A stretch of DNA of 32,233 bases. It comes from Nanobdellota archaeon (GTDB lineage: Archaea > Nanobdellota > Nanobdellia > Woesearchaeales > JAHJEM01). Under the pieces are notes generated by a model. It was not told where the DNA came from and searched no databases. It was given only the letters and a program-made list of their open reading frames with translations. Positions within the stretch are counted from its first letter, which is position 1. Each line of letters opens with the position of its first letter. Position numbers and translations under genes: made by a program. Shown here in pieces: positions 915 through 26,243 of this stretch. Location: assembly GCA_018825425.1 (NCBI GenBank), contig JAHJEM010000139.1, positions 1 through 32,233 of the forward strand, in the 5' to 3' direction.

Positions 915-3527
915 ATGAACCCTCGAGTTTGGCTGCTTACAATATTATTGCTCATAATACCTTTCTCATATGCAGCAAACTGTGGTGGGGGGACTGATTG
1001 TCAGTGCGGGGATTATTTGACTTCTAATCATGTCATGGACTATGATCTTACTGGTTGTGATGGTCATGGTATACGGATTGCAACAGCAGGTCTAATCTTA
1101 GACTGCAACAACAAGCAGATTCAAGGTATTGATTACAGGTCTACAGGTGTTGATATCACAAACAGTGAGATAACTGTGAAGAATTGCAAGATAAACAAGT
1201 TCGGGACTGGAATCAACATTCATGAATGCAATGATTGTGAGATAACTGATAATAAGATCTATGACCACGATGGTTATGCTATCAGACTCTCAGGATCAGT
1301 GGATTCTTCAGGTGTAATAATCACTGGTAATGAATTGTATGATATTGATCATTATACCTTGACAATCGAGAGCTCCAATGTCCATGGCACCACAATAGAT
1401 GACAATTACATCCATGATAATCCTCAGCACGGCATAATTATCAAAGGCAATGATCATGTGGTTACAAATAATCGTCTTAGGAACAATGGTTATGGAAGTG
1501 GTCATTATCCTGGAATTGAAGCGAGCGCAATCGGAGGACAACACTTTGATAATGCAGAAATCTCAGGTAATACAATAAATGGTGAACAGTACAAAGCAAT
1601 ATATCTTGCAGGATATGTCACGAATTCTGAGGTTACTGACAATGAGATAACAGGATGCAGAAGTCAAGGAATATATTTAGGACCTCATTCAGAAAATGTG
1701 GATATTATTGACAATCATATTACAGGAGGGGGCAGATCACAAGGATATGGTGTTGACTTGTGGAGTTTGGGACCGGATATAACCTTCAGTAATAATTTTG
1801 TGTGCAATTACATGAACGATGTATTCTGTCATGGAACAGGTACAGTCGTAACAGGGTCTGGAAACACTTTTTCAGTGCTCTACAATGGTAATGGTGCTTG
1901 CGATGGCGTTACATATTCTCCTTGTCCTGCATCTTGTGGAAACACAGTAGTTGAAGGAAGCGAACAATGCGATGATGGCAATCATGATAATGGGGACGGA
2001 TGCGATGCTTACTGCAGGACCGAAGCGTGTGGTAATGGACGTATTGATGCAGGAGAAGAATGCGACGATAACAATGTCGTAAATGGAGATGGATGCAACA
2101 GCCAATGCCAGACCGAAGTACTGGTCGAGATCTGTACCAATGGAATTGATGATGATCTAGATTCATATATTGATTGCTATGATTCAGACTGTACCTCAAA
2201 TCCTGCTTGTGTCCCTGACGAGATATGCAACAATGCATATGACGATGATGGAGACGGTTATTCTGACTGCTATGACACTGATTGTGCAGATTATCCTGCA
2301 TGCATGGATGACGAGATATGCAATAATGGATTAGATGATGACGATGACGGAGATGAAGACTGTGATGACTCTGACTGCAGCTCAAGTCAATATTGTCAAG
2401 ATTCTGAGATCTGTGACAATGATGAGGACGATGATGACGATGGAGACACTGACTGCGATGATTCTGACTGTGCTGATCTAAGCATATGTGATACAGGACT
2501 TGAGATTTGTGACAATGATGAGGACGATGATGACGATGGAGACACAGATTGTGATGATTCTGATTGTGAAAACGAGAGTATATGCATTGATCCTCCTGAC
2601 TATGAACTTTCATGTGTGAATGGAATAGACGACGATGCTGATGGAGATACTGACTGCGATGATGATGATTGCCTATTGGTTCCAAACTGCTATGACTTCA
2701 ATCAAACCAACCAGACAAACCAGTCTCAACCAAACAATCAGAGCAACCAGTCCAACCAATCAAGCCCTCCTCCAGAAGATCCTGTCTTCAAGACAATAGA
2801 GACTAATCTGCCAGGTATAACGATTGATGTGGAAACAACAAATAAATTCCCAATCTGTACACTAGAAGAAAAGGCAATAACCAATCTACCAAAAGGTGAT
2901 GCACTTTACAGTATTCATTTCATCAATTGTGACATAGAGACTGAGGCCCAGAAGATAATTTTCACTGTGACTGCCAATTCTAAGGAACCCCTTATCTTTC
3001 ACAAACAAGGAGCCACATGGAATAGCATTGATTTGGACGATGTGTATACCCATGGAGTTTCAACTGAAGTATCTGTCGTGTACCAAGGAATTGGTGACTA
3101 TGCTGTCATTATTCCTGATGAAGAAGAACCAGATGATCCTGTAGACGAAGACCCGACTGAAGTGGAAACAGGTGGTGGAATGTCTGTCTGGATAATAATA
3201 TTCGTGATAGCAGGAGTTGTTGTTCTTGGAGGAACTATTGGCTTTCTATATTTGAATAGAGAACATAATCACAAACAGGCTAATCCGAATATGATAACAC
3301 CAGAAGTGCACGAAACAGTACATAGAAGCATAAAAAGTGGTGCCAAACCAGAAAAAGTACATAATGTATTAGCACACAATGGATGGAAACCTGAAGAAGT
3401 GAAAAAAGTTATCCATACATATAGAAATGTACCAAATAAATACCAGAAAACACCATATCAGACAATTGAAAAACACAGGGCTGATTTCATGGACAAAGCG
3501 TTTTCTAGTGATTCGGACAAAAAATAG
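915..3527 (+). CDS. Secreted/membrane-anchored right-handed beta-helix protein with DUF4215-like Cys-rich repeats, six MopE-like acidic Cys repeats, a C-terminal TM helix and a cytoplasmic helical tail
   Basis: N-terminal signal peptide; NosD-like beta-helix text (ITDNKIYDHDGYAIRL...); CGNGRIDAGEECDDNNVVNGDGCNSQC; repeated EICxNxxDDDxDGxxDCxDxDC; TM segment VWIIIFVIAGVVVLGGTIGFLYL near the C-terminus. Confidence 0.85.
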   Translation: MNPRVWLLTILLLIIPFSYAANCGGGTDCQCGDYLTSNHVMDYDLTGCDGHGIRIATAGLILDCNNKQIQGIDYRSTGVDITNSEITVKNCKINKFGTGINIHECNDCEITDNKIYDHDGYAIRLSGSVDSSGVIITGNELYDIDHYTLTIESSNVHGTTIDDNYIHDNPQHGIIIKGNDHVVTNNRLRNNGYGSGHYPGIEASAIGGQHFDNAEISGNTINGEQYKAIYLAGYVTNSEVTDNEITGCRSQGIYLGPHSENVDIIDNHITGGGRSQGYGVDLWSLGPDITFSNNFVCNYMNDVFCHGTGTVVTGSGNTFSVLYNGNGACDGVTYSPCPASCGNTVVEGSEQCDDGNHDNGDGCDAYCRTEACGNGRIDAGEECDDNNVVNGDGCNSQCQTEVLVEICTNGIDDDLDSYIDCYDSDCTSNPACVPDEICNNAYDDDGDGYSDCYDTDCADYPACMDDEICNNGLDDDDDGDEDCDDSDCSSSQYCQDSEICDNDEDDDDDGDTDCDDSDCADLSICDTGLEICDNDEDDDDDGDTDCDDSDCENESICIDPPDYELSCVNGIDDDADGDTDCDDDDCLLVPNCYDFNQTNQTNQSQPNNQSNQSNQSSPPPEDPVFKTIETNLPGITIDVETTNKFPICTLEEKAITNLPKGDALYSIHFINCDIETEAQKIIFTVTANSKEPLIFHKQGATWNSIDLDDVYTHGVSTEVSVVYQGIGDYAVIIPDEEEPDDPVDEDPTEVETGGGMSVWIIIFVIAGVVVLGGTIGFLYLNREHNHKQANPNMITPEVHETVHRSIKSGAKPEKVHNVLAHNGWKPEEVKKVIHTYRNVPNKYQKTPYQTIEKHRADFMDKAFSSDSDKK
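2127..2690 (+). repeat. Coding tandem repeats encoding six EIC(D/N)N..DDDxDG.xDC.DxDC units
   Basis: Six tandem units read in the translation; two units (2406-2472 and 2502-2568) are nearly identical at DNA level, 96 bp apart. Confidence 0.85.
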
Positions 3528-3563
3528 CCCGAGAAACCATCTCTTCCCAAGGAATGGGAAACT

Positions 3564-3572
3564 TTTATAAAT
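3564..3572 (+). promoter_or_regulatory. TATA box of second beta-helix protein gene
   Basis: TTTATAAAT, 31 bp upstream of ATG 3595. Confidence 0.6.
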
Positions 3573-3594
3573 CCTAAACCTCAGAATTGTAGGT

Positions 3595-6500
3595 ATGGCA
3601 AAGCAGATTGATCCAAAGCAGTATATGGTGCTGCTTTTCATAATGATTGCAATTTTCTCAAGCTTTTACGCCGCAATGCAACCTGATGGTCAATTGAATC
3701 TTTATGGTAAGGCTGTAGGAGATTGTATCACGCCTGATGAGTTAGAGGTTTTTGCCAACCAATACATAATCAGCGATGATGTGAATTTGTGTCCTGGGGA
3801 CTATACCATTGATAGGACAATGACAATAGCAAATGATGACATCACTGTGGATTGCAGTGGAGCCACTTTAAGAAACCCATATTTCCAGTCCTCAAAGAAA
3901 CGGTTGGAAGTCAAGGCATGTGTCATAGTTGATGGAAATATTGTTTTTTCTAATTCGGATGATACAATAATAAAAGAGAATATATTCTTGGAGACAAGAG
4001 TGCGGTTTGATGGAGACAGCGCAGATGGAATAAACATTAGTAACAATACTTTTAGGATGAATGACGCTGCTGCTTCAATTCATTTGTATCATATAACTGA
4101 CAGCTTAGTCTACAGCAACACATACTCCTGCGATTATATGTCTGCTTCAATGGTATCTCTGATGGATTCAGACAACAATGATATAATTTCAAATGATATT
4201 AGAGGAGAGTGCCATGGCGCAGGTATCGGACTGGTACGGTCTTCGAGCAATCTGATCAGCCACAACAGCATCAAAAAGATACAGACAGGTATTGCGATCA
4301 GTTCTGATTCAGACGATAATGTAATCGAGCATAACAGCATTCTAAGATCATCTGGTGCAACCAATGGTCTTAATTCTGGAATAACGGTGAGTGGATCAGA
4401 TAATACCCTGGTCAGGAACAATAGCGTCAATGAGACCTCAGGTTCTGCTATCAGAGTAAGGTCAGGAACAACCAATCTCCGGCTTTATGATAATTTCATC
4501 TGCAAGAACAATCCAGGATATTATGACAGGGATATCAAGTGTGAGAATGCACCAAGTGGTGCTGTTACCGGAGCAAGAAATTATATTGGAAGGATACATA
4601 CAGATTGTGTTGTTAGTGGTTTTGAGAAGTGGGATTGTCCATATTGTGGAAACAATAAGGCTGAATATGCTGTGGGAGAAGAATGTGACGGAAACGATAT
4701 GGGTAAATATACTTGTCTTGACTATGATTACAATCGCGGGTTCTTGGACTGCAATCCACCAGGATCAGACAACGAATGCAAATACAATTTTGATTCCTGC
4801 AGTGATGAGTGTTATGATGATGTAACAGAGCCAATCTATGAACCGGTTAAGATGTGCCCAGGAACCTATACGCTTGAGAATAAAATTGTCGTCGGGGTAC
4901 AAAGAGTCTTTGATTGTGCAGGCTCAACCCTAATAGCGGGTGCAGATACTTATGCATTCCAACTGGGAGACTATGCAGAGGTTAGGAATTGTCATCTCAA
5001 GAATTTTGAGGTTGGTGTTTATGTTAAAGGCAGATGGGAATCCGCAGGCCACCAAGGATGGACGTTACATGATCCAAAGATCAAAGATATGAACATTGAA
5101 GACTGCAAGACAGGTATCTATGCATGGATGGTACCTAACTTGTTTATCAATAATACCAATATTACTGGAACAGACCTATTTGGTTTAAGAGTCTCACATA
5201 TTGAGGCTGCCAAGCTTTACAACATTAAATCATGTGACAATGTGAATAGCAGGGATTTCAATTGGGCACAATATGTACAAGACTACAGTACTCCTGCGAC
5301 TGGAGATGACTTGTTCTTCCAAAATGCTCATGTTAGTGTACCAAATCCAGGTATAACCTGGCAACCATGTTATGGACCTCCACCAGTAGAAATATGCAAC
5401 AATGAACTTGATGATGACTCAGACGACTTGATTGACTGTGATGATCCAGACTGCACAACAAATCCAAACTGCATCCCAGGAGCAGAGATCTGCGATAATG
5501 AGATTGATGATGATTCAGATCAGCTAATTGATTGTGATGATCCCGACTGCGAAAGTGCAGAAGCATGCAGAGGAGATCCACTGCCAGGAGCTCCACCAGA
5601 GATCTGCGATAATGGTATTGACGATGACCAAGATGAGTTTGTAGATTGTTTTGATATGGATTGTCTTGACTTCTGTGATAGTGGTGAAAATCCTGATGCA
5701 GGAAATGGCGATGATGGCGGAGACGACGAGGGATCTGGAGCTGGTGATGATGGTTCTGGAGATGACAACAGCCCTGGTGACTATGAATACGAACGCTTCT
5801 GTGACAACCTATTTGATGACGATGATGACGGCTTGCTTGATTGTGAAGATGATGACTGCCTCCGAGTTCCAGAATGTGAAGATATCTTCTATGACGATGA
5901 TGATCTGTGGAACCTAGATCCAGATGATCTGGACTGGGAGTTGGATGGTTTAGATGATGATGTGTACAATACACCTGCTGATCCTCCACCTGAAAACATT
6001 CCATTGGAGAAATCTCTTACTACCAATGTAGAAGGAATGACACTCATAGTGGAAACCACCAATGCAGAACCTACTTGTTATGTGGAGACCAAAACTCCTG
6101 CAATAATGCCTGCAGGAGAAGTAGTGTACTCAATTGAACTATTTGATTGTGATATCCAGACCAATGCAAAATATGTGATCTTTGATATCCAAGGAATTGA
6201 TCAGACAGACAACATAATCAGTGCATACTATGGAACAGCTACAGGATGGAGAAAACTTCAATCTTCAGATGCAGAGGTCATAGATCAGAACTTAAAGATG
6301 CTTTTCCAGGGAAGAGGCAACTATGCAATCATGTCTGCTGAACCAACATATGACAGGAGAGATCCTGCCAACGAAGAGCCTACAGATATTGAATCTTCCT
6401 CATTCTCATTCACTGGACTTATCATTATGTTGATATCAGTACTTGTTGTTGGAAGCATAATATTCCTTTATTTCCATAGAGAGATGCTTCATCTGCAGTT

Positions 6501-6723
6501 CCCTCACAACAAGATGACTCCTGACGTAAACAATGTATTCCAGAAGTCAATGAAACAAGGGAAAAATTCTGAACAGATCCAGAAAGTTTTCGTGAAAAAT
6601 GGCTGGCAGGATGCCCAGATACAAAGGATGGTTGAACAGAAGATGAGCTCACCAAAAAAGAAAGTAAACAAAGATAAGTTTGGCAAGCGATCTGATATGA
6701 TAAGCAATGCTTTTTCTAAGTGA
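3595..6723 (+). CDS. Tandem paralogue: secreted beta-helix protein with MopE-like acidic Cys repeats, C-terminal TM helix and helical tail
   Basis: N-terminal TM/signal segment; beta-helix region; four EICxNxxDDDxDxxxDCxDxDC units; C-terminal region homologous to 915..3527 (ETTN.xPxCxxE...YSIxxxxCDIxTxAxxxIF...QGxGxYA); TM and GW-containing tail. Confidence 0.85.
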   Translation: MAKQIDPKQYMVLLFIMIAIFSSFYAAMQPDGQLNLYGKAVGDCITPDELEVFANQYIISDDVNLCPGDYTIDRTMTIANDDITVDCSGATLRNPYFQSSKKRLEVKACVIVDGNIVFSNSDDTIIKENIFLETRVRFDGDSADGINISNNTFRMNDAAASIHLYHITDSLVYSNTYSCDYMSASMVSLMDSDNNDIISNDIRGECHGAGIGLVRSSSNLISHNSIKKIQTGIAISSDSDDNVIEHNSILRSSGATNGLNSGITVSGSDNTLVRNNSVNETSGSAIRVRSGTTNLRLYDNFICKNNPGYYDRDIKCENAPSGAVTGARNYIGRIHTDCVVSGFEKWDCPYCGNNKAEYAVGEECDGNDMGKYTCLDYDYNRGFLDCNPPGSDNECKYNFDSCSDECYDDVTEPIYEPVKMCPGTYTLENKIVVGVQRVFDCAGSTLIAGADTYAFQLGDYAEVRNCHLKNFEVGVYVKGRWESAGHQGWTLHDPKIKDMNIEDCKTGIYAWMVPNLFINNTNITGTDLFGLRVSHIEAAKLYNIKSCDNVNSRDFNWAQYVQDYSTPATGDDLFFQNAHVSVPNPGITWQPCYGPPPVEICNNELDDDSDDLIDCDDPDCTTNPNCIPGAEICDNEIDDDSDQLIDCDDPDCESAEACRGDPLPGAPPEICDNGIDDDQDEFVDCFDMDCLDFCDSGENPDAGNGDDGGDDEGSGAGDDGSGDDNSPGDYEYERFCDNLFDDDDDGLLDCEDDDCLRVPECEDIFYDDDDLWNLDPDDLDWELDGLDDDVYNTPADPPPENIPLEKSLTTNVEGMTLIVETTNAEPTCYVETKTPAIMPAGEVVYSIELFDCDIQTNAKYVIFDIQGIDQTDNIISAYYGTATGWRKLQSSDAEVIDQNLKMLFQGRGNYAIMSAEPTYDRRDPANEEPTDIESSSFSFTGLIIMLISVLVVGSIIFLYFHREMLHLQFPHNKMTPDVNNVFQKSMKQGKNSEQIQKVFVKNGWQDAQIQRMVEQKMSSPKKKVNKDKFGKRSDMISNAFSK
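5389..5877 (+). repeat. Coding repeats encoding four MopE-like acidic Cys units, interrupted by a Gly/Asp-rich linker
   Basis: EICNNELDDDSDDLIDCDDPDC, EICDNEIDDDSDQLIDCDDPDC, EICDNGIDDDQDEFVDCFDMDC, RFCDNLFDDDDDGLLDCEDDDC. Confidence 0.8.
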
Positions 6724-17388: not shown

Positions 17389-17835
17389 ATGGAATTCATC
17401 TTATTGCTCTTGACATTGGTTGTTGGAGGCATTGCAGGCTTAATTGTTGCGCACTATTCCAATGAAGAGTTAAAGACTGGAAAGAGATTCTTTATGTTCA
17501 TACAGCCTCTGCTCATGCTCGTAATCATGGTTGTTGTTGCAGCTTACTCAGACATTGCATTTGCAGTTGTATTGGTTCTGGTATTTCTGAGCGCCTTATT
17601 GATCAATAAAGAGATCTACAATTTTATGTTGCTTGGAGTCGTGTTGGCATTGGTCAATGAAGGACTGCTTGCAATTGTAGCAAGCATTGTCCTGTTGTAC
17701 TTCCTGATTAATTCAGCCTTGCTCTACCAACACTCAATGGAGCTCAAAGAAAAGAAAATCCCTTTTTTTACCAAGACACTTCTAGTCAAATACATCCTAT
17801 TTCTAATCCTTGCATTGATTGGATACTTCATATGA
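17389..17835 (+). CDS. Integral membrane protein, unknown function
   Basis: Multiple hydrophobic segments across 148 aa. Confidence 0.6.
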   Translation: MEFILLLLTLVVGGIAGLIVAHYSNEELKTGKRFFMFIQPLLMLVIMVVVAAYSDIAFAVVLVLVFLSALLINKEIYNFMLLGVVLALVNEGLLAIVASIVLLYFLINSALLYQHSMELKEKKIPFFTKTLLVKYILFLILALIGYFI

Positions 17836-17845
17836 GCTGACCCAG

Positions 17846-18514
17846 ATGAAAAAGGAACTGAAAAAAGTCACTACAAAGGATGGATCTGAAACCTTCTATT
17901 CTGATGAATATCAAGAGTACTATCATTCAATAAGCGGTGCTATGGAAGAGGCATTCAAGAAATTCGCAATTCCCGGTATAAAACCAAAGTTGAAAAAGAA
18001 AAGCATAAGGATTCTTCATATCTGCTTTGGCCTAGGATACTTGAGTGCCGCAGCAATCCATTACATCCGAAAAAACAATGCCAAAATGGATGTTGATATC
18101 ATCGGACTTGAGATTGATCAGGCAATTCTTGACAAGATATCAGAAATTGAGGTTCCAAACCTGATTAAACCAGACTACGAGCTCATAAGAGGGCTTGCCC
18201 ACAACAAGTGGGAACTGCATCTGGGCAGATTTCATCTGAAGATGATAAAGGGTGATGCAAGACATACTATAAATGATCTTGAAGGCGGATTCGATGTGGT
18301 ATTCCTTGATCCATTCAGCCCAAAAAAGTGTCCTGAGCTCTGGACACAAAAATTTATCAAGAAAATATATGATCTTATGAACAAGAAAGGCATCCTTACC
18401 ACATATTCTTGTGCTCGTAGTGTTCGAAATAACCTTGAAGCTGTTGGTTTTAAGGTCAAAGATGGTCCGCGGGTGGGCAGGAGAGCACCTAGCACCATTG
18501 CTCAGAAAACCTGA
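17846..18514 (+). CDS. MnmC2-like SAM-dependent methyltransferase (tRNA wobble uridine modification)
   Basis: SDEYQEYYHSISGAMEE; ILHICFGLGYLSAAAIHYI; VVFLDPFSPKKCPELWTQKFIKKIYDLM; LTTYSCARSVRNNLEAVGFKVKDGPRVGRRAPSTIA. The track start TTG 17819 overlaps the upstream gene; ATG 17846 preferred. Confidence 0.82.
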   Translation: MKKELKKVTTKDGSETFYSDEYQEYYHSISGAMEEAFKKFAIPGIKPKLKKKSIRILHICFGLGYLSAAAIHYIRKNNAKMDVDIIGLEIDQAILDKISEIEVPNLIKPDYELIRGLAHNKWELHLGRFHLKMIKGDARHTINDLEGGFDVVFLDPFSPKKCPELWTQKFIKKIYDLMNKKGILTTYSCARSVRNNLEAVGFKVKDGPRVGRRAPSTIAQKT

Positions 18515-19157: not shown

Positions 19158-19185
19158 TCTGATACAGAGTATTTCTATCGAAATA

Positions 19186-19193
19186 TTTAAATA
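19186..19193 (+). promoter_or_regulatory. TATA box of nrtR-like gene
   Basis: TTTAAATA. Confidence 0.6.
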
Positions 19194-19195
19194 AA

Positions 19196-19212
19196 AGTGT
19201 AGCAATTACACT
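19196..19212 (+). promoter_or_regulatory. Putative NrtR operator AGTGT-N7-ACACT (nrtR promoter)
   Basis: AGTGTAGCAATTACACT, 2 bp after the TATA box; same motif and geometry at 20046-20062. Confidence 0.7.
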
Positions 19213-19249
19213 ATTAAAATAATTATGTGAGATAAAAAGGTCTAATTTT

Positions 19250-19945
19250 ATGGCATTTAGCATTAAGGATTGGTCACATCTTGGACGTATGCAAGTAGCT
19301 TCCGATGCAGTTGTATTCACAGTATTAAATAATGAACTGCAAGTCCTTCTAATCAAACGAAGATATCCTCCATTCAAAGGCACATATGCGTTGCCAGGAG
19401 GGTTCTTGCAACAGCATGAAAGTCCTGAAGAAGCCGCGATTAGAGAGCTTCGGGAAGAGACAGGAGTCCAGAAACTTCATCTTCATCAATTAGGTGCTTA
19501 TGGCGACCCTAAACGAGATCCGCGGGGACGAGTTCTTAGTGTTTCATACATTGCTCTTGCTGACCATCATAGAAAACTTCATTCAACCACAGATGCATTA
19601 CGTGCTGACTGGTTTTTAGTACACAATCTTCCAAAGCTGGCCTTTGATCATGCAAAAATCATTGAGGATGCACTGGTTCATTTGCGACTGGAGATCCAGA
19701 CAACAAATATTGCCTACCAGATATTGACCAGAAAGTTTACATTATCTCAACTGCAAAAGCTATACGAATTGATCCTAGAAAAGAAACTGGACAAACGAAA
19801 TTTCCGAAAAAAGATCAAAGAACTCGATCTCCTCGAGGAAACCAAGGAGTTATTCAGGGAAGGCGCTCATAGGCCCGCAATGTTATATAGGTTCAGGGAT
19901 CGAGAATACAAGCCCCTTTCTGAGAAAATCCAAGCATTTCTTTAA
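19250..19945 (+). CDS. nrtR: NrtR-type Nudix-domain transcriptional regulator of NAD metabolism
   Basis: N-terminal Nudix domain with intact box GGFLQQHESPEEAAIRELREETGV; C-terminal NrtR-like winged HTH (NIAYQILTRKFTLSQLQKLYELILEKKLDKRNFRKKIKELDLLEET); directly upstream of the NAD operon. Confidence 0.88.
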   Translation: MAFSIKDWSHLGRMQVASDAVVFTVLNNELQVLLIKRRYPPFKGTYALPGGFLQQHESPEEAAIRELREETGVQKLHLHQLGAYGDPKRDPRGRVLSVSYIALADHHRKLHSTTDALRADWFLVHNLPKLAFDHAKIIEDALVHLRLEIQTTNIAYQILTRKFTLSQLQKLYELILEKKLDKRNFRKKIKELDLLEETKELFREGAHRPAMLYRFRDREYKPLSEKIQAFL

Positions 19946-20033
19946 AAACGTTTTGTGACACCCTATTTTCTTTATAAAGACCATTACATTTCAACTTTTC
20001 CTTTATAAGTTTATATCCTACACTAACGAAATC

Positions 20034-20043
20034 TTTATAAATA
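20034..20043 (+). promoter_or_regulatory. TATA box of NAD operon
   Basis: TTTATAAATA; further CTTTATAA copies upstream at 19970 and 20001. Confidence 0.6.
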
Positions 20044-20064
20044 TTAGTGTATATCTGACACTAA
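20044..20064 (+). promoter_or_regulatory. Putative NrtR operator TTAGTGT-N7-ACACTAA (NAD operon promoter)
   Basis: Perfect 7-bp inverted repeat; core AGTGT-N7-ACACT at 20046-20062 identical in spacing to the nrtR copy. Confidence 0.75.
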
Positions 20065-20078
20065 CTGAATGAAAAATT

Positions 20079-20108
20079 AAGGTCCGTAATCGAACACGGG
20101 CCTTTTTT
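20079..20108 (+). terminator. Leader hairpin with U6 tract (terminator/attenuator-like) in the NAD operon 5' leader
   Basis: AAGGTCCGT-AATCGAAC-ACGGGCCTT followed by the T run at 20103-20108; 9-bp stem with one G-U. Confidence 0.5.
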
Positions 20109-20167
20109 ATTCAAACAGTAAGTGTAAAAAGTACAATAACTAAAAAGGAAGAAAGGAGGACTCAAAG

Positions 20168-21346
20168 ATGAAAAACAAAATGCAAGCATTCGCAGACAAA
20201 TACTTCCTGCGATCAGACGAAATACTAAGAAAAGAAGGACTCAATCCCTGGGTCAACATGCAAGTCTTTGTAAGGAAAGGACCTGGAGAAATTGCAGGGA
20301 TTGATGAAGCTATTGATATCATAACCCAGAATTCAAATATTGCTGAAGTGGGCGGACGAATCTATGCCAAATCCGAAGGTGACATCTACACACCCACTGA
20401 GACTGTAATGAACATTGTGGCCCCAATACAATCAATCATGCCACTGGAGACAGTATATCTTGGTCCGATCGCGTCTGAGACAACCCGCAGAAACGATCAC
20501 AAAGAAATCGATCTTGAAGCCATAACCAGAAATGTTGAACAAGTGGTTGCACTTGCAGGTGGAAGACCAGTTTTCTATTTCGGTGCCAGGCATTGGCACT
20601 ATAATATGGATGCAGAAATCACTGCCGCTGCTTTTGCAGGCGGTTGTGCTTCTGCATCAACCGACAATGGCGCCTCAACTGCAGGCCAAAAAGGCATGGG
20701 AACAATCCCTCACGCATTAGAAAACGTATACGCTTTCTATCATGGAGTTGAAAATGCTGTAGCCGAAAGCACAGCAGCATTTGACCGCCACATGGATCCA
20801 AACATACCTCGTGTTGCTCTTGTTGACTACAATAATCGTGAAATTGATGACAGTGTTCAGACCTCAGAGAAACTTAGGTCTCAAGGGTCAAGACTGTCAG
20901 CTGTAAGAATAGATACTTGCGGCGAGAATTATGCCCAAGGAGCAAGAGAATTTGTTAGAGATTCTGAATTTGCGCAGACAGCCGATCAAGCATTCGGAGG
21001 ATACTTTGCTCCAAGCGGAGTAAGTATTGCAGGTGCTATCATATTGAGACAATGGTTAGATGCCATTCCAGGACCAAGGATAGGTCTTGTCTTAAGCTCA
21101 GGATTCAGCAGCCCTGCCAAAGTCCAAGCATTTAACGACGCTGAAGCACACTACGGAATGAAAATATATGATTCTATCGGAGCAGGATTTCTTGATGGTA
21201 TCCGAACATCAACTGCAGACATAATTGCAGTAGGCAACAGTGCTGATCAAGTCGACTATTTTGTGGCACCTATTGCAGAGCACAACATCATACACAAGGT
21301 AGGCAGGCCGCCAAAATACAATACAACACTCGAGAGGAGAGTGTAG
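20168..21346 (+). CDS. pncB: Nicotinate phosphoribosyltransferase
   Basis: FYFGARHWHYNMDAEIT; GGCASASTDNGASTAGQKGMGTIPHALE; IDTCGENYAQGAREF; LSSGFSSPAKVQAF. Strong SD GGAGG upstream. Confidence 0.88.
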   Translation: MKNKMQAFADKYFLRSDEILRKEGLNPWVNMQVFVRKGPGEIAGIDEAIDIITQNSNIAEVGGRIYAKSEGDIYTPTETVMNIVAPIQSIMPLETVYLGPIASETTRRNDHKEIDLEAITRNVEQVVALAGGRPVFYFGARHWHYNMDAEITAAAFAGGCASASTDNGASTAGQKGMGTIPHALENVYAFYHGVENAVAESTAAFDRHMDPNIPRVALVDYNNREIDDSVQTSEKLRSQGSRLSAVRIDTCGENYAQGAREFVRDSEFAQTADQAFGGYFAPSGVSIAGAIILRQWLDAIPGPRIGLVLSSGFSSPAKVQAFNDAEAHYGMKIYDSIGAGFLDGIRTSTADIIAVGNSADQVDYFVAPIAEHNIIHKVGRPPKYNTTLERRV

Positions 21347-21376: not shown

Positions 21377-22312
21377 ATGCAAACAATCGAAGAAACAACC
21401 GAACACACAACTGAACAAATAGTAGAACAACCAGCTAAACAAAAAAAACGAGTGATCATCGCAAACCTGATTGATTTCTCAGAGTCATTCACTGACAAGA
21501 ATGGTTCCTTTTATTGTGGAACCACAGATGAACAAAAGGAACACACAGCAGATGTTGTAGAGCTTGCAGATCTTGTCATCAATGCAACTGATCTGCACCC
21601 AGTGACTGCACCAGAATTCACAGTAAACGGAGGACTTTATCCTGTTCACAACTCTGTTCACCCAGAACAATATGGACCTGATTTTATATTTGCAAGGACT
21701 CAAACTGGAGAGGATCTTCTTCTTGAGGACAAGACATTGAGTCCAAGACTTACCAGAATCATCAGAGATTCTATTCAGGATAGGAAATCAGGAATGATTG
21801 TCCCACGTGGAGTATACTTCCAGGGTGAAGGACAAAGTCAGTTCTGTGCACCTACTGATATTGAAGAGACTTTTGATGAGAAAATAATCTCTGATAAGGA
21901 ATTCATTGAAGATGACTACGGATACATTATTGCTCCAAAACAGTATTTCGATGCCACAAGACTCGATTCTGATAGAGCTCTTCCTGACGAGAGCATTCCA
22001 GGTGTTCCTGATCAGAACTATGACGTCTTTAGTCTGCTTAATGAAAAGTTCCCATCTGACGAATACGAAGTAATACTTGTGAATACAGGTGTGGTCGAAG
22101 GAATATGCAGACTTCATACATCAACAGGAGTAAGACAGATGTTTCCAGAAGCTCGAGTGATCAACATCTCAGATGCAACAACACCCCTCTATGGAATCGG
22201 TCTTGGATATGAGACTGAGAGCGAGTCAAGAGATGCATGTGAGAAAGTATGCAAGGACATAGGAATTGAGTACATGACAACACAAGAATTCCTTGACGAA
22301 TTCAAGGAATGA
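21377..22312 (+). CDS. pncA: Divergent isochorismatase-fold nicotinamidase
   Basis: IANLIDFSESF (Asp), NATDLHP (metal DxH), GGLYPVHNSVH, LLEDKTLSP (Lys), VNTGVVEGICRLHTSTGVRQMFPEARVINISDAT (Cys); position between pncB and nadE. Confidence 0.7.
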   Translation: MQTIEETTEHTTEQIVEQPAKQKKRVIIANLIDFSESFTDKNGSFYCGTTDEQKEHTADVVELADLVINATDLHPVTAPEFTVNGGLYPVHNSVHPEQYGPDFIFARTQTGEDLLLEDKTLSPRLTRIIRDSIQDRKSGMIVPRGVYFQGEGQSQFCAPTDIEETFDEKIISDKEFIEDDYGYIIAPKQYFDATRLDSDRALPDESIPGVPDQNYDVFSLLNEKFPSDEYEVILVNTGVVEGICRLHTSTGVRQMFPEARVINISDATTPLYGIGLGYETESESRDACEKVCKDIGIEYMTTQEFLDEFKE

Positions 22313-22344: not shown

Positions 22345-23199
22345 ATGAAACTCGAAAAAACCATCAAGAAAGCATACTTTGCAAATGGAATAGCACACGC
22401 AGTGGATCAGCTCGCAGACCAGATTATTGATTGGGTTGTGGGTTCAGGATCACGTGGAGGCGTAGTGGGCTTGAGTGGAGGAATTGATTCAACCACTGTT
22501 GCCTACCTCACAAAATTTGCATTTGACAAGTACAATAGCACACGTCCAGAAGAAGATCATCTCACACTTTATGGTATGATGCTACCATCAAAAGTAAATG
22601 ACAGAGCTGACGTGGAAGATGGTCAGAGAGTTGCAGATTATCTTGGAATAGAGAGCAAGGTTGTCCCGATTGAACCAATTGCAGACAGTTTCAAGCAATC
22701 AATGCCCTATGCTTTTGAAGACAAAGAAGAATGGCACACAGGCAATCTCTACTCTGAAACAAGAGCAGTTGTCCTAAGCAGGTTTGCGGCCAGTCAAGAT
22801 TGCTTAGTCATGGGAACAGGCAACAAGGATGAGGATTACGGACTGGGCTATTTCACCAAAAGAGGTGATGGTGCAGTTGACAATAACGTCCTAGGTAGTC
22901 TTTCAAAACGCTTGGTTCGACAAGTTGCCCAATTTCTAGCAGTACCAGAAGATCTTGTGAAAAGGACAAGCACTGCAGGTTTATGGGAGGACCAGACTGA
23001 TGAAGGAGAACTAGGTTATGGCTATGATGTTGCAGAAGCTGTCATGAATGGACTGGATCAAGGATTCAGCCCAGAAGAAATTGTAGATATCACAGGGTAT
23101 GGCAAAGACACTGTTCAAGATGTCATGTATCGTCATGAATCTACACGTCACAAGAGAAATGTACCGCCAGTCGCAGAGGTGAGTCTTGCATACGAATGA
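22345..23199 (+). CDS. nadE: NAD synthetase (NH3-dependent type, no glutaminase domain)
   Basis: GLSGGIDSTTVAYL PP-loop; MGTGNKDEDYGLGYFTKRGDGAVDNNVLGSLSKRLVRQVAQFL; TAGLWEDQTDEGELGYGYD. Confidence 0.93.
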   Translation: MKLEKTIKKAYFANGIAHAVDQLADQIIDWVVGSGSRGGVVGLSGGIDSTTVAYLTKFAFDKYNSTRPEEDHLTLYGMMLPSKVNDRADVEDGQRVADYLGIESKVVPIEPIADSFKQSMPYAFEDKEEWHTGNLYSETRAVVLSRFAASQDCLVMGTGNKDEDYGLGYFTKRGDGAVDNNVLGSLSKRLVRQVAQFLAVPEDLVKRTSTAGLWEDQTDEGELGYGYDVAEAVMNGLDQGFSPEEIVDITGYGKDTVQDVMYRHESTRHKRNVPPVAEVSLAYE

Positions 23200-23235: not shown

Positions 23236-24114
23236 ATGAAAAGCCCAACATATACTATGATTGTAGGAAGTAAAGCATGTCCTAATGATTGTGAACTCTG
23301 CATCTCAAAGATGACACCTGATTATGGTATAGGCCTTGCTCTACCTCCTGTAAACTGGGATAGGTTTGAGACAGCTACAAGAATGGCACTTGCCCATGGT
23401 GCAGAGAATGCACTCATTACAGGCAAAGGTGAACCAACATTGTATCCCGGCCAAGTAACCCAGTACCTCATACGTCTAAAAGACAAGCCGTTTAGTGCGC
23501 GGGAAATCCAGACAGAAGGAAGCCAGCTTGCAAGAGGAGGATTATACAATGATTTCCTGACTGTATGGAGAGAACTTGGCCTTGATACTGTAGCTGTCTC
23601 AATGTACCATTATGATATGGAAAAGAATCAAAATCTCTATCGGCCAAGAGATGGAAAGTTCTATGACATACCTGATCTAGTAGACAAGCTCCATGAGAAA
23701 GATCTCAACACCCGCTTATCGTGCGTCCTCATGAAAGGATATGTCGGAGATGTTGATGAGGTCAAGAATCTCATCCAGTTTGCCAAAGAAAACAAGGTTT
23801 TCCAACTCACACTCAGATCAACAGGTCAACCTGAAAAGAGTCTGGATCAAAGGGTTGCTGATTTTGTAGATGCCCACACGGTCAGCCAAGAAAATCTTGC
23901 TGCAATCACTGAATTCCTGGAAAAAGAAGGATCTTTCTGCTACTCTCTTCCTCATGGTGCAAATGTGTACGAGGTCTATGGTCAGAATGTGTGCATGACT
24001 ACGTGCATGACCACACCAGAGAGAAATGAAGATAAGATCCGTCAGCTAATCTGGTTTCCACAAGGGTGGCTCACAACTAGTTGGGAAAATGTTCAAGGAG
24101 GTAGATTATTATGA
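23236..24114 (+). CDS. Radical SAM protein of unknown function in the NAD operon
   Basis: CPNDCELC (CxxxCxxC), ITGKGEPTLYP; additional C-terminal CMTTCMTT. SD TTGGAGG precedes ATG 23236; the track start TTG 23224 falls at the SD. Confidence 0.85.
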   Translation: MKSPTYTMIVGSKACPNDCELCISKMTPDYGIGLALPPVNWDRFETATRMALAHGAENALITGKGEPTLYPGQVTQYLIRLKDKPFSAREIQTEGSQLARGGLYNDFLTVWRELGLDTVAVSMYHYDMEKNQNLYRPRDGKFYDIPDLVDKLHEKDLNTRLSCVLMKGYVGDVDEVKNLIQFAKENKVFQLTLRSTGQPEKSLDQRVADFVDAHTVSQENLAAITEFLEKEGSFCYSLPHGANVYEVYGQNVCMTTCMTTPERNEDKIRQLIWFPQGWLTTSWENVQGGRLL

Positions 24115-24728
24115 ATTCCACTGAAAAAAGAAAGCAGGTGCTTGTCATTGGAAGGTTCCAACCTGTCTGTGGCAACCATGTTGATATGGTTGAACAGGCA
24201 AGAGAATATGGAGAAGATCTGATCGTAGGGATTGGCAGACCAAATTATGCACGTGCAAGAGAAGTTCTTGATGCCAAGGGTTTTTTGGAATATCAAGTAA
24301 AGAATCTTTTCTCATATGAACGGACCAAGGAATTGGTTGAACATGCTTTCGCAGGAGAGAAAGGAATTGCTGTTGTCCCTATATACGACATCTTTGACCC
24401 TGACAATTATGCATCACATGTCAAGAATGAAGCTGCAAAAGCAGGCGTACATCTTGATGACTGTGTGCTTGCAGGAGAGAACTTTGATACTTGGAAATGC
24501 TTTGAGGGGTCTGGTATTGAAGTGAGGCTTGTGCAAGATAGAACCAAGTATCATGCAACACAGATCAGAGAAGAGATTTATCGTACTGGAAAGAGCGAAC
24601 AGCTTGCTGCACCACTAACTCCAAAGGAAATCAAACGGGTTCAGGATGCAAACTATATACTTGGACAAGAGAGTGCTCATGATATGAGAGAAGCTATACT
24701 AAAATTAGGATATGAAATTATTGATTAA
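24111..24728 (+). CDS. nadM: Archaeal-type NMN/NaMN adenylyltransferase
   Basis: VIGRFQPVCGNHVDMVEQAREYGEDLIVGIGRP nucleotidyltransferase start; PIYDIFD; HATQIREEIYRTGK. 4-bp overlap with upstream gene. Confidence 0.88.
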   Translation: MNSTEKRKQVLVIGRFQPVCGNHVDMVEQAREYGEDLIVGIGRPNYARAREVLDAKGFLEYQVKNLFSYERTKELVEHAFAGEKGIAVVPIYDIFDPDNYASHVKNEAAKAGVHLDDCVLAGENFDTWKCFEGSGIEVRLVQDRTKYHATQIREEIYRTGKSEQLAAPLTPKEIKRVQDANYILGQESAHDMREAILKLGYEIID

Positions 24729-24768: not shown

Positions 24769-25329
24769 ATGAGCGAGATACTGCAACCAGGGGACCGATT
24801 GATATACAAAGGACATTTAACATTAGTACACAGGGAATTTCGTGATAAACCATTTGATGTAATACTTTCAAAAGATGCATGTTGTATCATGTACATAGAT
24901 CCTGAAGATCATGTATATTTTATCAGACAGTATAGAGTTCCAATGGGAAAAGAGATTCTTGAACTTCCAGCAGAGACCATGGATAAACCAGGTCTGACAT
25001 CATTGGAAGTCATTGTTGAAGGACTTGAAGAAGAATGTGGAATCAAGATATCACCAAGTCAAGTACACTACTTCACCACAATTGGATCTTCAGAAGGACA
25101 TGATTCTGAGATGGTGGATCTGTTCTATGCCTACGGCCCGAATAAATACGTTGGCCAAAGGCTTGAAGACACTGAAAAGATCAACGTTGTACGGATTCCT
25201 TTCATGGATGCATATCAAATGATGCTAAGAGGAGAGATTCAAGGAGGAAAGGCTGTACCCCTCTTGCAGCATGAATATATAAAAAGGATGGAAGAGTCCT
25301 ACGGACCAATTCACGGAGGAGAACCATGA
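24769..25329 (+). CDS. Nudix-fold protein, ADP-ribose pyrophosphatase-like with degenerate Nudix box
   Basis: VYFIRQYRVPMGKEILELPAETMDKPGLTSLEVIVEGLEEECGI aligns to PAGxxxxGExxxxAAxRELxEETG with the G, first E and R substituted. Confidence 0.78.
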   Translation: MSEILQPGDRLIYKGHLTLVHREFRDKPFDVILSKDACCIMYIDPEDHVYFIRQYRVPMGKEILELPAETMDKPGLTSLEVIVEGLEEECGIKISPSQVHYFTTIGSSEGHDSEMVDLFYAYGPNKYVGQRLEDTEKINVVRIPFMDAYQMMLRGEIQGGKAVPLLQHEYIKRMEESYGPIHGGEP

Positions 25330-26243
25330 GCAGAGTAATGTTGGTTTATAAGAGAAGCTCATTTGATCTTTATAAGGATTCAGATGATGAACTAATACGA
25401 AATTTCATATGGAGCAATCATCCTGAAGCCAAACGCAAAAGAGAAAGCCATGAACACCAGGAAAAAACACTGGAAACTGTAGTGCATGAACTTCAAAGGC
25501 AAGGAATCAGTTTTGATCAAATATATAGAGCAGATTTGGACAAGCCAGATGGATATGATTACGTAATCACAGTTGGAGGAGATGGTACCCTCCTAGAAGT
25601 TGCTCATTTCATATTGGATATACCCTTGCTAGGTGTTAACTCTGACCCCAACGGAAGCCTAGGATTCTATTCATCTAGTAATAGATTTAATTTTGGTGAA
25701 ATACTTGCAGATATTGATTCATACAAAACAACTCAACTTCACAGATTTGGAATAAAAATTGACGGTAAAAGTGTTAGAGAACCAGCCCTAAATGACGTCC
25801 TATTTGCGCATAGCAATCCAGCTGCAAATACGTATTATGTACTTACTGCTGACAAGGTCCTTGATCCTGTTGGGAGAGGAAGTGGAGTTTTGATGTGTAC
25901 ACCTTCTGGTTCCACAGCATTTCTTTATCAAGAGAATGGAATAATGACTCCTCTTGACTTTGATAAGATTCAATACAGGCACAGGGCGGTACGAGGAAAC
26001 AAAAGTCAATTTGCATCTGAAATCAATATTGAATCCACAACAAGACCTGCCAGGATATATATTGATGGAGATCATCTAACATATCCTGTGACACTTGGTC
26101 AGACTTTGAATATAACCCAAGGACCCCAGATAACAATTATTGGCGAATTGGAAGAAAGGAGAAAAAAAATGGATCCTGATTACAACCACTGTGGACACTG
26201 TAGAGATAACAGTGTTAATCCCCATCAAACTCCTGATATATGA
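25326..26243 (+). CDS. nadK: NAD kinase
   Basis: DYVITVGGDGTLLEVAHF (GGDGT), LGVNSDPNGSLGFYSS, MCTPSGSTAFLY; 4-bp overlap with the Nudix gene. Confidence 0.92.
   Translation: MSRVMLVYKRSSFDLYKDSDDELIRNFIWSNHPEAKRKRESHEHQEKTLETVVHELQRQGISFDQIYRADLDKPDGYDYVITVGGDGTLLEVAHFILDIPLLGVNSDPNGSLGFYSSSNRFNFGEILADIDSYKTTQLHRFGIKIDGKSVREPALNDVLFAHSNPAANTYYVLTADKVLDPVGRGSGVLMCTPSGSTAFLYQENGIMTPLDFDKIQYRHRAVRGNKSQFASEINIESTTRPARIYIDGDHLTYPVTLGQTLNITQGPQITIIGELEERRKKMDPDYNHCGHCRDNSVNPHQTPDI

Follow-up and report, generated by a model that had tools for sequence, protein, structure and literature searches.

Paired predicted NrtR operators around a leader U-tract suggest repressor-coupled attenuation of an archaeal NAD operon

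What does one palindrome, AGTGT-N7-ACACT, do in the promoters of both an nrtR-like gene and the NAD operon behind it in the genome of an archaeon? Both copies in the window (the whole stretch of 32,233 nt analysed here, from a Nanobdellota archaeon; all features of the nrtR/NAD locus are on the forward strand) are exact and lie at the positions given in the original prediction: AGTGTAGCAATTACACT at 19196–19212, the predicted autoregulatory operator of nrtR, and AGTGTATATCTGACACT at 20046–20062, predicted operator 1 of the NAD operon, which has the extended form TTAGTGT-N7-ACACTAA. When one mismatch was allowed, motif scans returned four sites in the window (starting at 19196, 20008, 20046 and 20121), all of them at the nrtR/NAD locus, compared with a mean of 0.98 in shuffled windows, 2 of 100 of which reached four. 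The site at 20008–20024 (AGTTTATATCCTACACT) is degenerate, with its single mismatch in a conserved G and only the right half-site ACACTAA intact. Three exact copies are present in the whole genome (1.51 Mb in 143 contigs, ~82% complete), two at this locus and one on contig 48; the latter was rejected as an operator and treated as a chance occurrence because it is located inside an ORF, read as that of a HerA-like ATPase. The motif is not common at unrelated promoters and is nearly absent from the rest of the genome.

The gene between the two palindromes (19250–19945) is nrtR, as identified by two independent domain matches: its product of 231 aa matches the Nudix family PF00293 in its N-terminal part (4.8e-22, 78.9 bits) and the NrtR winged-helix family PF21906 in its C-terminal part (NrtR_WHD; 3.5e-25, 88.4 bits), both above the Pfam cut-off. 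Against the NCBI equivalog model NF050029 it scores 138 bits, where the cut-off is 400 bits; by the NCBI rule it therefore belongs to the NrtR family in the wider sense and is not an equivalog. Its PDB relatives include 5bs6 and 3gz5, and the closest solved proteins are Bacteroides AraR (BtAraR, PDB 5bs6/5deq; 8e-44), with which it has a DKRNFRK stretch in common, and Shewanella NrtR (SoNrtR; 5e-28). The AraR_C model also matches (52 bits). However, AraR controls arabinose genes and binds L-arabinose, whereas the neighbours here are NAD genes, so that the arabinose-gene surroundings of an AraR regulator are lacking. The Nudix box is intact in the window protein and in most of its closer relatives in the order, which is probably Woesearchaeales or near it (DPANN), unlike in characterised NrtRs, for which it is reported to be impaired (PMC4666351, PMC6800001). 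A tree built from 127 NrtRs places the window protein in an archaeal group of 29 rows, which is moderately supported (85/86); taken together, the archaeal rows require seven label changes. Four further loci (L051, L053, L122 and L123) represent one family with an NrtR of ~400 aa that apparently carries an extra N-terminal Nudix domain, and four others (L064, L067, L068 and L069) hold NrtR-like paralogues that branch deeply and apart from the rest; no GGF-type Nudix box was detected when these were searched for one.

Downstream of operator 1 lie seven ORFs, and several of the assignments within the operon are weak. The first, at 20168–21346, encodes a PncB-like nicotinate phosphoribosyltransferase (NCBIfam 4.6e-38, under the model cut-off; QRPTase_N). 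It is followed by an ORF of 311 aa without family assignment (21377–22312), which had no match in Pfam or NCBIfam and whose best PDB match, an isochorismatase, is not significant (E 0.36); homologues of 39–57% occur in other NAD clusters (L110, L119 and L129), and local motifs alone make a divergent nicotinamidase possible. NadE (NAD synthase; 22345–23199, PF02540 8.6e-57), a radical SAM protein (23236–24114, PF04055 1.1e-7, with the start placed at an ATG by our choice), a NadM-like adenylyltransferase (24111–24728, weak matches to PF01467 and PRK01153), a Nudix hydrolase of the YffH/AdpP type resembling ADP-ribose pyrophosphatase (24769–25329, TIGR00052 9.4e-12, under the cut-off) and an NAD kinase (25326–26243, PF01513 2.8e-10) complete the series. 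The radical SAM gene is retained in the NAD clusters of several relatives.

By direct reading, the nrtR promoter consists of a BRE-like CGAAA and the TATA sequence TTTAAATA (19179–19193), and that of the NAD operon of the same BRE-like element and TTTATAAA (20027–20041). Both palindromes begin 2 bp past the letters AAATA and fill the interval from TATA to the expected start site, as had been proposed. The accompanying claim of identical TATA spacing holds for that count only: if the count starts from the TTTAWA hexamer, nrtR has a gap of 4 bp and the NAD operon one of 6 bp. Among relatives it tends to be ~4 bp for nrtR promoters, the class to which the window's nrtR promoter belongs, and mostly 8 bp for NAD operons, and since the two promoter classes tend to differ, "identical" is a loose reading and not a fixed rule. 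Similarly, the N7 spacers, which were said to share no sequence, do differ within the window, but their inner bases are biased in relatives (GTGTATNNNATACAC). The consensus of 32 promoters with an 8-bp gap comprises CGAAA, TTTAWATAG, the operator and AAG; an additional conserved element like TATATTCTNNAGTA is found in NAD-operon promoters of this type at −36 to −26 from operator 1, upstream of the BRE. A block of TFB or RNA polymerase by operator-bound NrtR would be the simplest reading of the operator position.

Comparison across genomes connects the motif with nrtR. A TATA-adjacent exact motif was found in 18 of the 27 genomes of the order that encode NrtR and in 11 of the 118 that do not (Fisher 2e-9), and again in 16 of 25 further NrtR-positive genomes (p 2e-8 against the same negative set); the rate in NrtR-negative genomes is close to that of a reversed control pattern (~15 of 145 by our count). 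Neither of the two refuting conditions that were checked, frequent occurrence at unrelated promoters and absence from relatives that have this operon, was borne out: in relatives, sites lie ahead of PncB, NadE, NADK, PnuC-NadR and nicotinamidase genes as well as at nrtR itself, and in one genome ahead of a gene of the inositol-phosphatase family. Some NrtR-positive genomes had no detectable site near nrtR. In bacteria of many phyla, 24 of 71 nrtR loci by our tally carry the exact motif no more than ~1 kb from the gene, which indicates that AGTGT-N7-ACACT is a shared NrtR operator. Taken with the domain matches, the operator position and the rarity of the motif in the genome, this co-occurrence supports the predicted autoregulation of nrtR and repression of the NAD operon, and the palindromes probably serve as operators for the NrtR whose gene they flank. 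Two other genomes carry NrtR-like sites before PnuC and a NadR-like gene (L074, 4170–4892; L077, 4600–6400).

The original prediction was, however, incomplete, as it overlooked the content of the leader. A terminator-like hairpin identified by folding (AAGGTCCG...CGGGCCTT, 20079–20104) runs into a T6 tract (20103–20108), which ends 12 nt upstream of a predicted operator 2 (AGTGTAAAAAGTACAAT, 20121–20137). The fold of 20064–20175 has a z of −3.3 and the leader alone one of −6.1, and the leader hairpin is the first-listed terminator-like match in 20 kb. The one mismatch of operator 2 lies in its right half (ACAAT), which is a point against the explanation favoured below. The same layout recurs in relatives: in ~32 promoters a second NrtR-like site, often AGTGTAAAAAATACAAT, is located 25–170 bp downstream of operator 1. 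T-runs of at least four end 9–14 nt before operator 2 in 20 of 32 such leaders, compared with 2.7 expected from shuffling, and 12 of the 32 lack one at this distance. With one leader per family the count is 11 of 17 families against 1.5 expected, a value that none of 20,000 simulations equalled; the p-value is optimistic because the 9–14 nt window was fixed after viewing the data, but the excess is nonetheless large. Genome-wide, T5 runs precede operator-2-like sites by 9–13 nt in 29 of 59 matches from NrtR-positive genomes and in 7 of 35 from NrtR-negative ones (p 0.004). A hairpin stands immediately before the T-run in the window, in the glutamate dehydrogenase (GDH) leader described below, in both leaders of family f63 and in several others, though not in all; a conserved hairpin was rejected as a core feature, since it is often missing from short leaders.

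Searching with the pattern of T-run and operator 2 alone returned loci in two genomes (G042 and G294) in which the pair is preceded by a TATA box with an imperfect operator 1 and followed by NAD genes. In a third (G283), the T-run and operator pair occupies an internal gene junction, behind an ORF of 502 codons and ahead of a nicotinamidase-like ORF, and the preceding 300 nt contain nothing that resembles an operator. An operator-like site in a fourth (G187:C3:33231) is ambiguous because it possibly lies within coding sequence. As separate observations, a SAM methyltransferase heads the NAD clusters behind paired operators at L080 (1512–3028, in G058) and L271 (340–2661, in G294).

From these arrangements, all of them comparative sequence evidence, we propose a two-step control by NrtR in Woesearchaeota, in which operator 1 would block initiation and operator 2, set 9–14 nt behind a U-tract, would create a ligand-controlled terminator; we give this reading as a whole a probability of roughly 40%. 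An NrtR dimer on 19196–19212 would repress nrtR itself, while NrtR on 20046–20062 would cover the DNA between TATA and start and thereby repress the NAD(P) operon. NrtR bound to the weaker site at 20121–20137 would halt any polymerase that escapes the first block while it is over the U-tract, and the transcript would be released at that point, as by a repressor-coupled attenuator. This stalling step, considered by itself, has a chance only slightly short of even. Both blocks would be relieved by a ligand derived from NAD; ADP-ribose is the probable one, by analogy with bacterial NrtRs such as that of Mycobacterium (MsNrtR), which represses its own gene until ADP-ribose releases it (PMC6800001). 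Archaeal terminators consist of runs of 4–7 U and do not strictly require a hairpin (PMC8716108). Those U-tracts lie at gene ends, whereas the one here is in a 5' leader beside an operator. Together with the enrichment of T-runs and the loci in G042, G294 and G283, this terminator type favours the stalled-polymerase terminator.

In the main rival, which is possible but doubtful, termination plays no part: the two operators would bind NrtR cooperatively or form a DNA loop, and the T-run would be a bendable tract. Paired operators are indeed common, their spacing clusters at 52–55 bp or about five helical turns, and the related AraR likewise has tandem sites, separated by 3 bp or 42 nt (PMC4666351). 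Nevertheless, the helical phasing of the two operators is weak overall (p 0.02–0.03) and disappears outside the 52–55 bp cluster (p 0.67), so phasing is not claimed here. Moreover, plain bending would not favour T-runs over A-runs, which occur at the same 9–14 nt distance in only 3 of 32 leaders as against 20, and the pair in G283 combines a T-run and an operator where operator 1 is lacking.

It is unlikely that the hairpin and the conserved AGTGTAAAAAATACAAT form an RNA element, either a riboswitch or a protein-bound leader, with an incidental likeness to the operator. Long leaders do contain strong hairpins (z to −6), and stem changes on both sides were seen by eye between sister leaders such as L042 and L111. 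However, an Rfam search found no match to a known riboswitch, several short leaders have no hairpin, and the hairpin sequences are not conserved. The part that is conserved is an NrtR-like palindrome, in which the ACAAT mismatch weakens the RNA hairpin. Less probable still is a degenerate second promoter–operator unit with its own start: although the T-run is placed about as TATA is relative to operator 1, it is a pure T tract instead of TTTAWATA and shows no BRE/TATA consensus, and GC-rich stems lie directly upstream of it in several leaders. That a different regulator binds the palindrome, with nrtR merely its neighbour, could be argued from G058, which has sites but yielded no match in an NrtR search at E 1e-20, and is very improbable in view of the co-occurrence of motif and nrtR across genomes and their adjacency in bacteria.

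If the stalled-polymerase reading is true, the two-step NrtR system would act as an attenuator built on a protein roadblock, for which no description was found in the literature searched. In known roadblocks such as LacI and EcoRI Q111 (reviewed in PMC10310618), a bound protein halts polymerase that has already left the promoter, as is proposed here; the difference is that here the site is set 9–14 nt behind a U-tract. A literature search by title and abstract returned no description of an operator roadblock paired with an intrinsic terminator or attenuation. NrtR appears as a bacterial family in the literature searched, a scope outside which the founding NrtR papers of 2008/2009 fall, and none of the Sulfolobus Nudix proteins examined in a study from 2023 was reported to have an HTH domain (PMC10311068). 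The locus resembles the bacterial systems of SoNrtR and MsNrtR in combining a Nudix and winged-helix protein with adjacent NAD genes, an N7-spaced palindromic operator and, as predicted here, autoregulation. It differs from them in an archaeal host with TATA/BRE promoters, in the second operator behind a U-tract and in an operator at GDH in this genus. Since one operator sequence accompanies both bacterial and archaeal TATA promoters, a cross-domain repressor–operator pair is directly testable, and the recurring distance between U-tract and operator offers a precise and cheap test of whether repressors in archaea can serve as regulated terminators.

The GDH leader lies on contig 105 of the same genome (L070, 3400–3560) and contains both operators, a hairpin and a T6 tract. 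It aligns with the NAD leader of the window, and this likeness suggests that its paired-operator cassette is a duplicate copy. The GDH gene of G001 (L073, 4140) has one operator, and no operator was present within the stretch scanned in 28 other genomes with a GDH match. NrtR control of GDH in general was accordingly rejected, since among 30 genomes with a GDH match only two, both of this genus, had such operators; in this genus a GDH operator would tie NAD status to nitrogen metabolism. Elsewhere in the window, an MnmC2-like tRNA methyltransferase gene adjoins the locus at 17819–18514 (NCBIfam 6.2e-35, under the cut-off), and the ORF list includes two large ORFs at 915–6723 with repeated ICDNxxDDDxDxxxDCxDxDC-like stretches.
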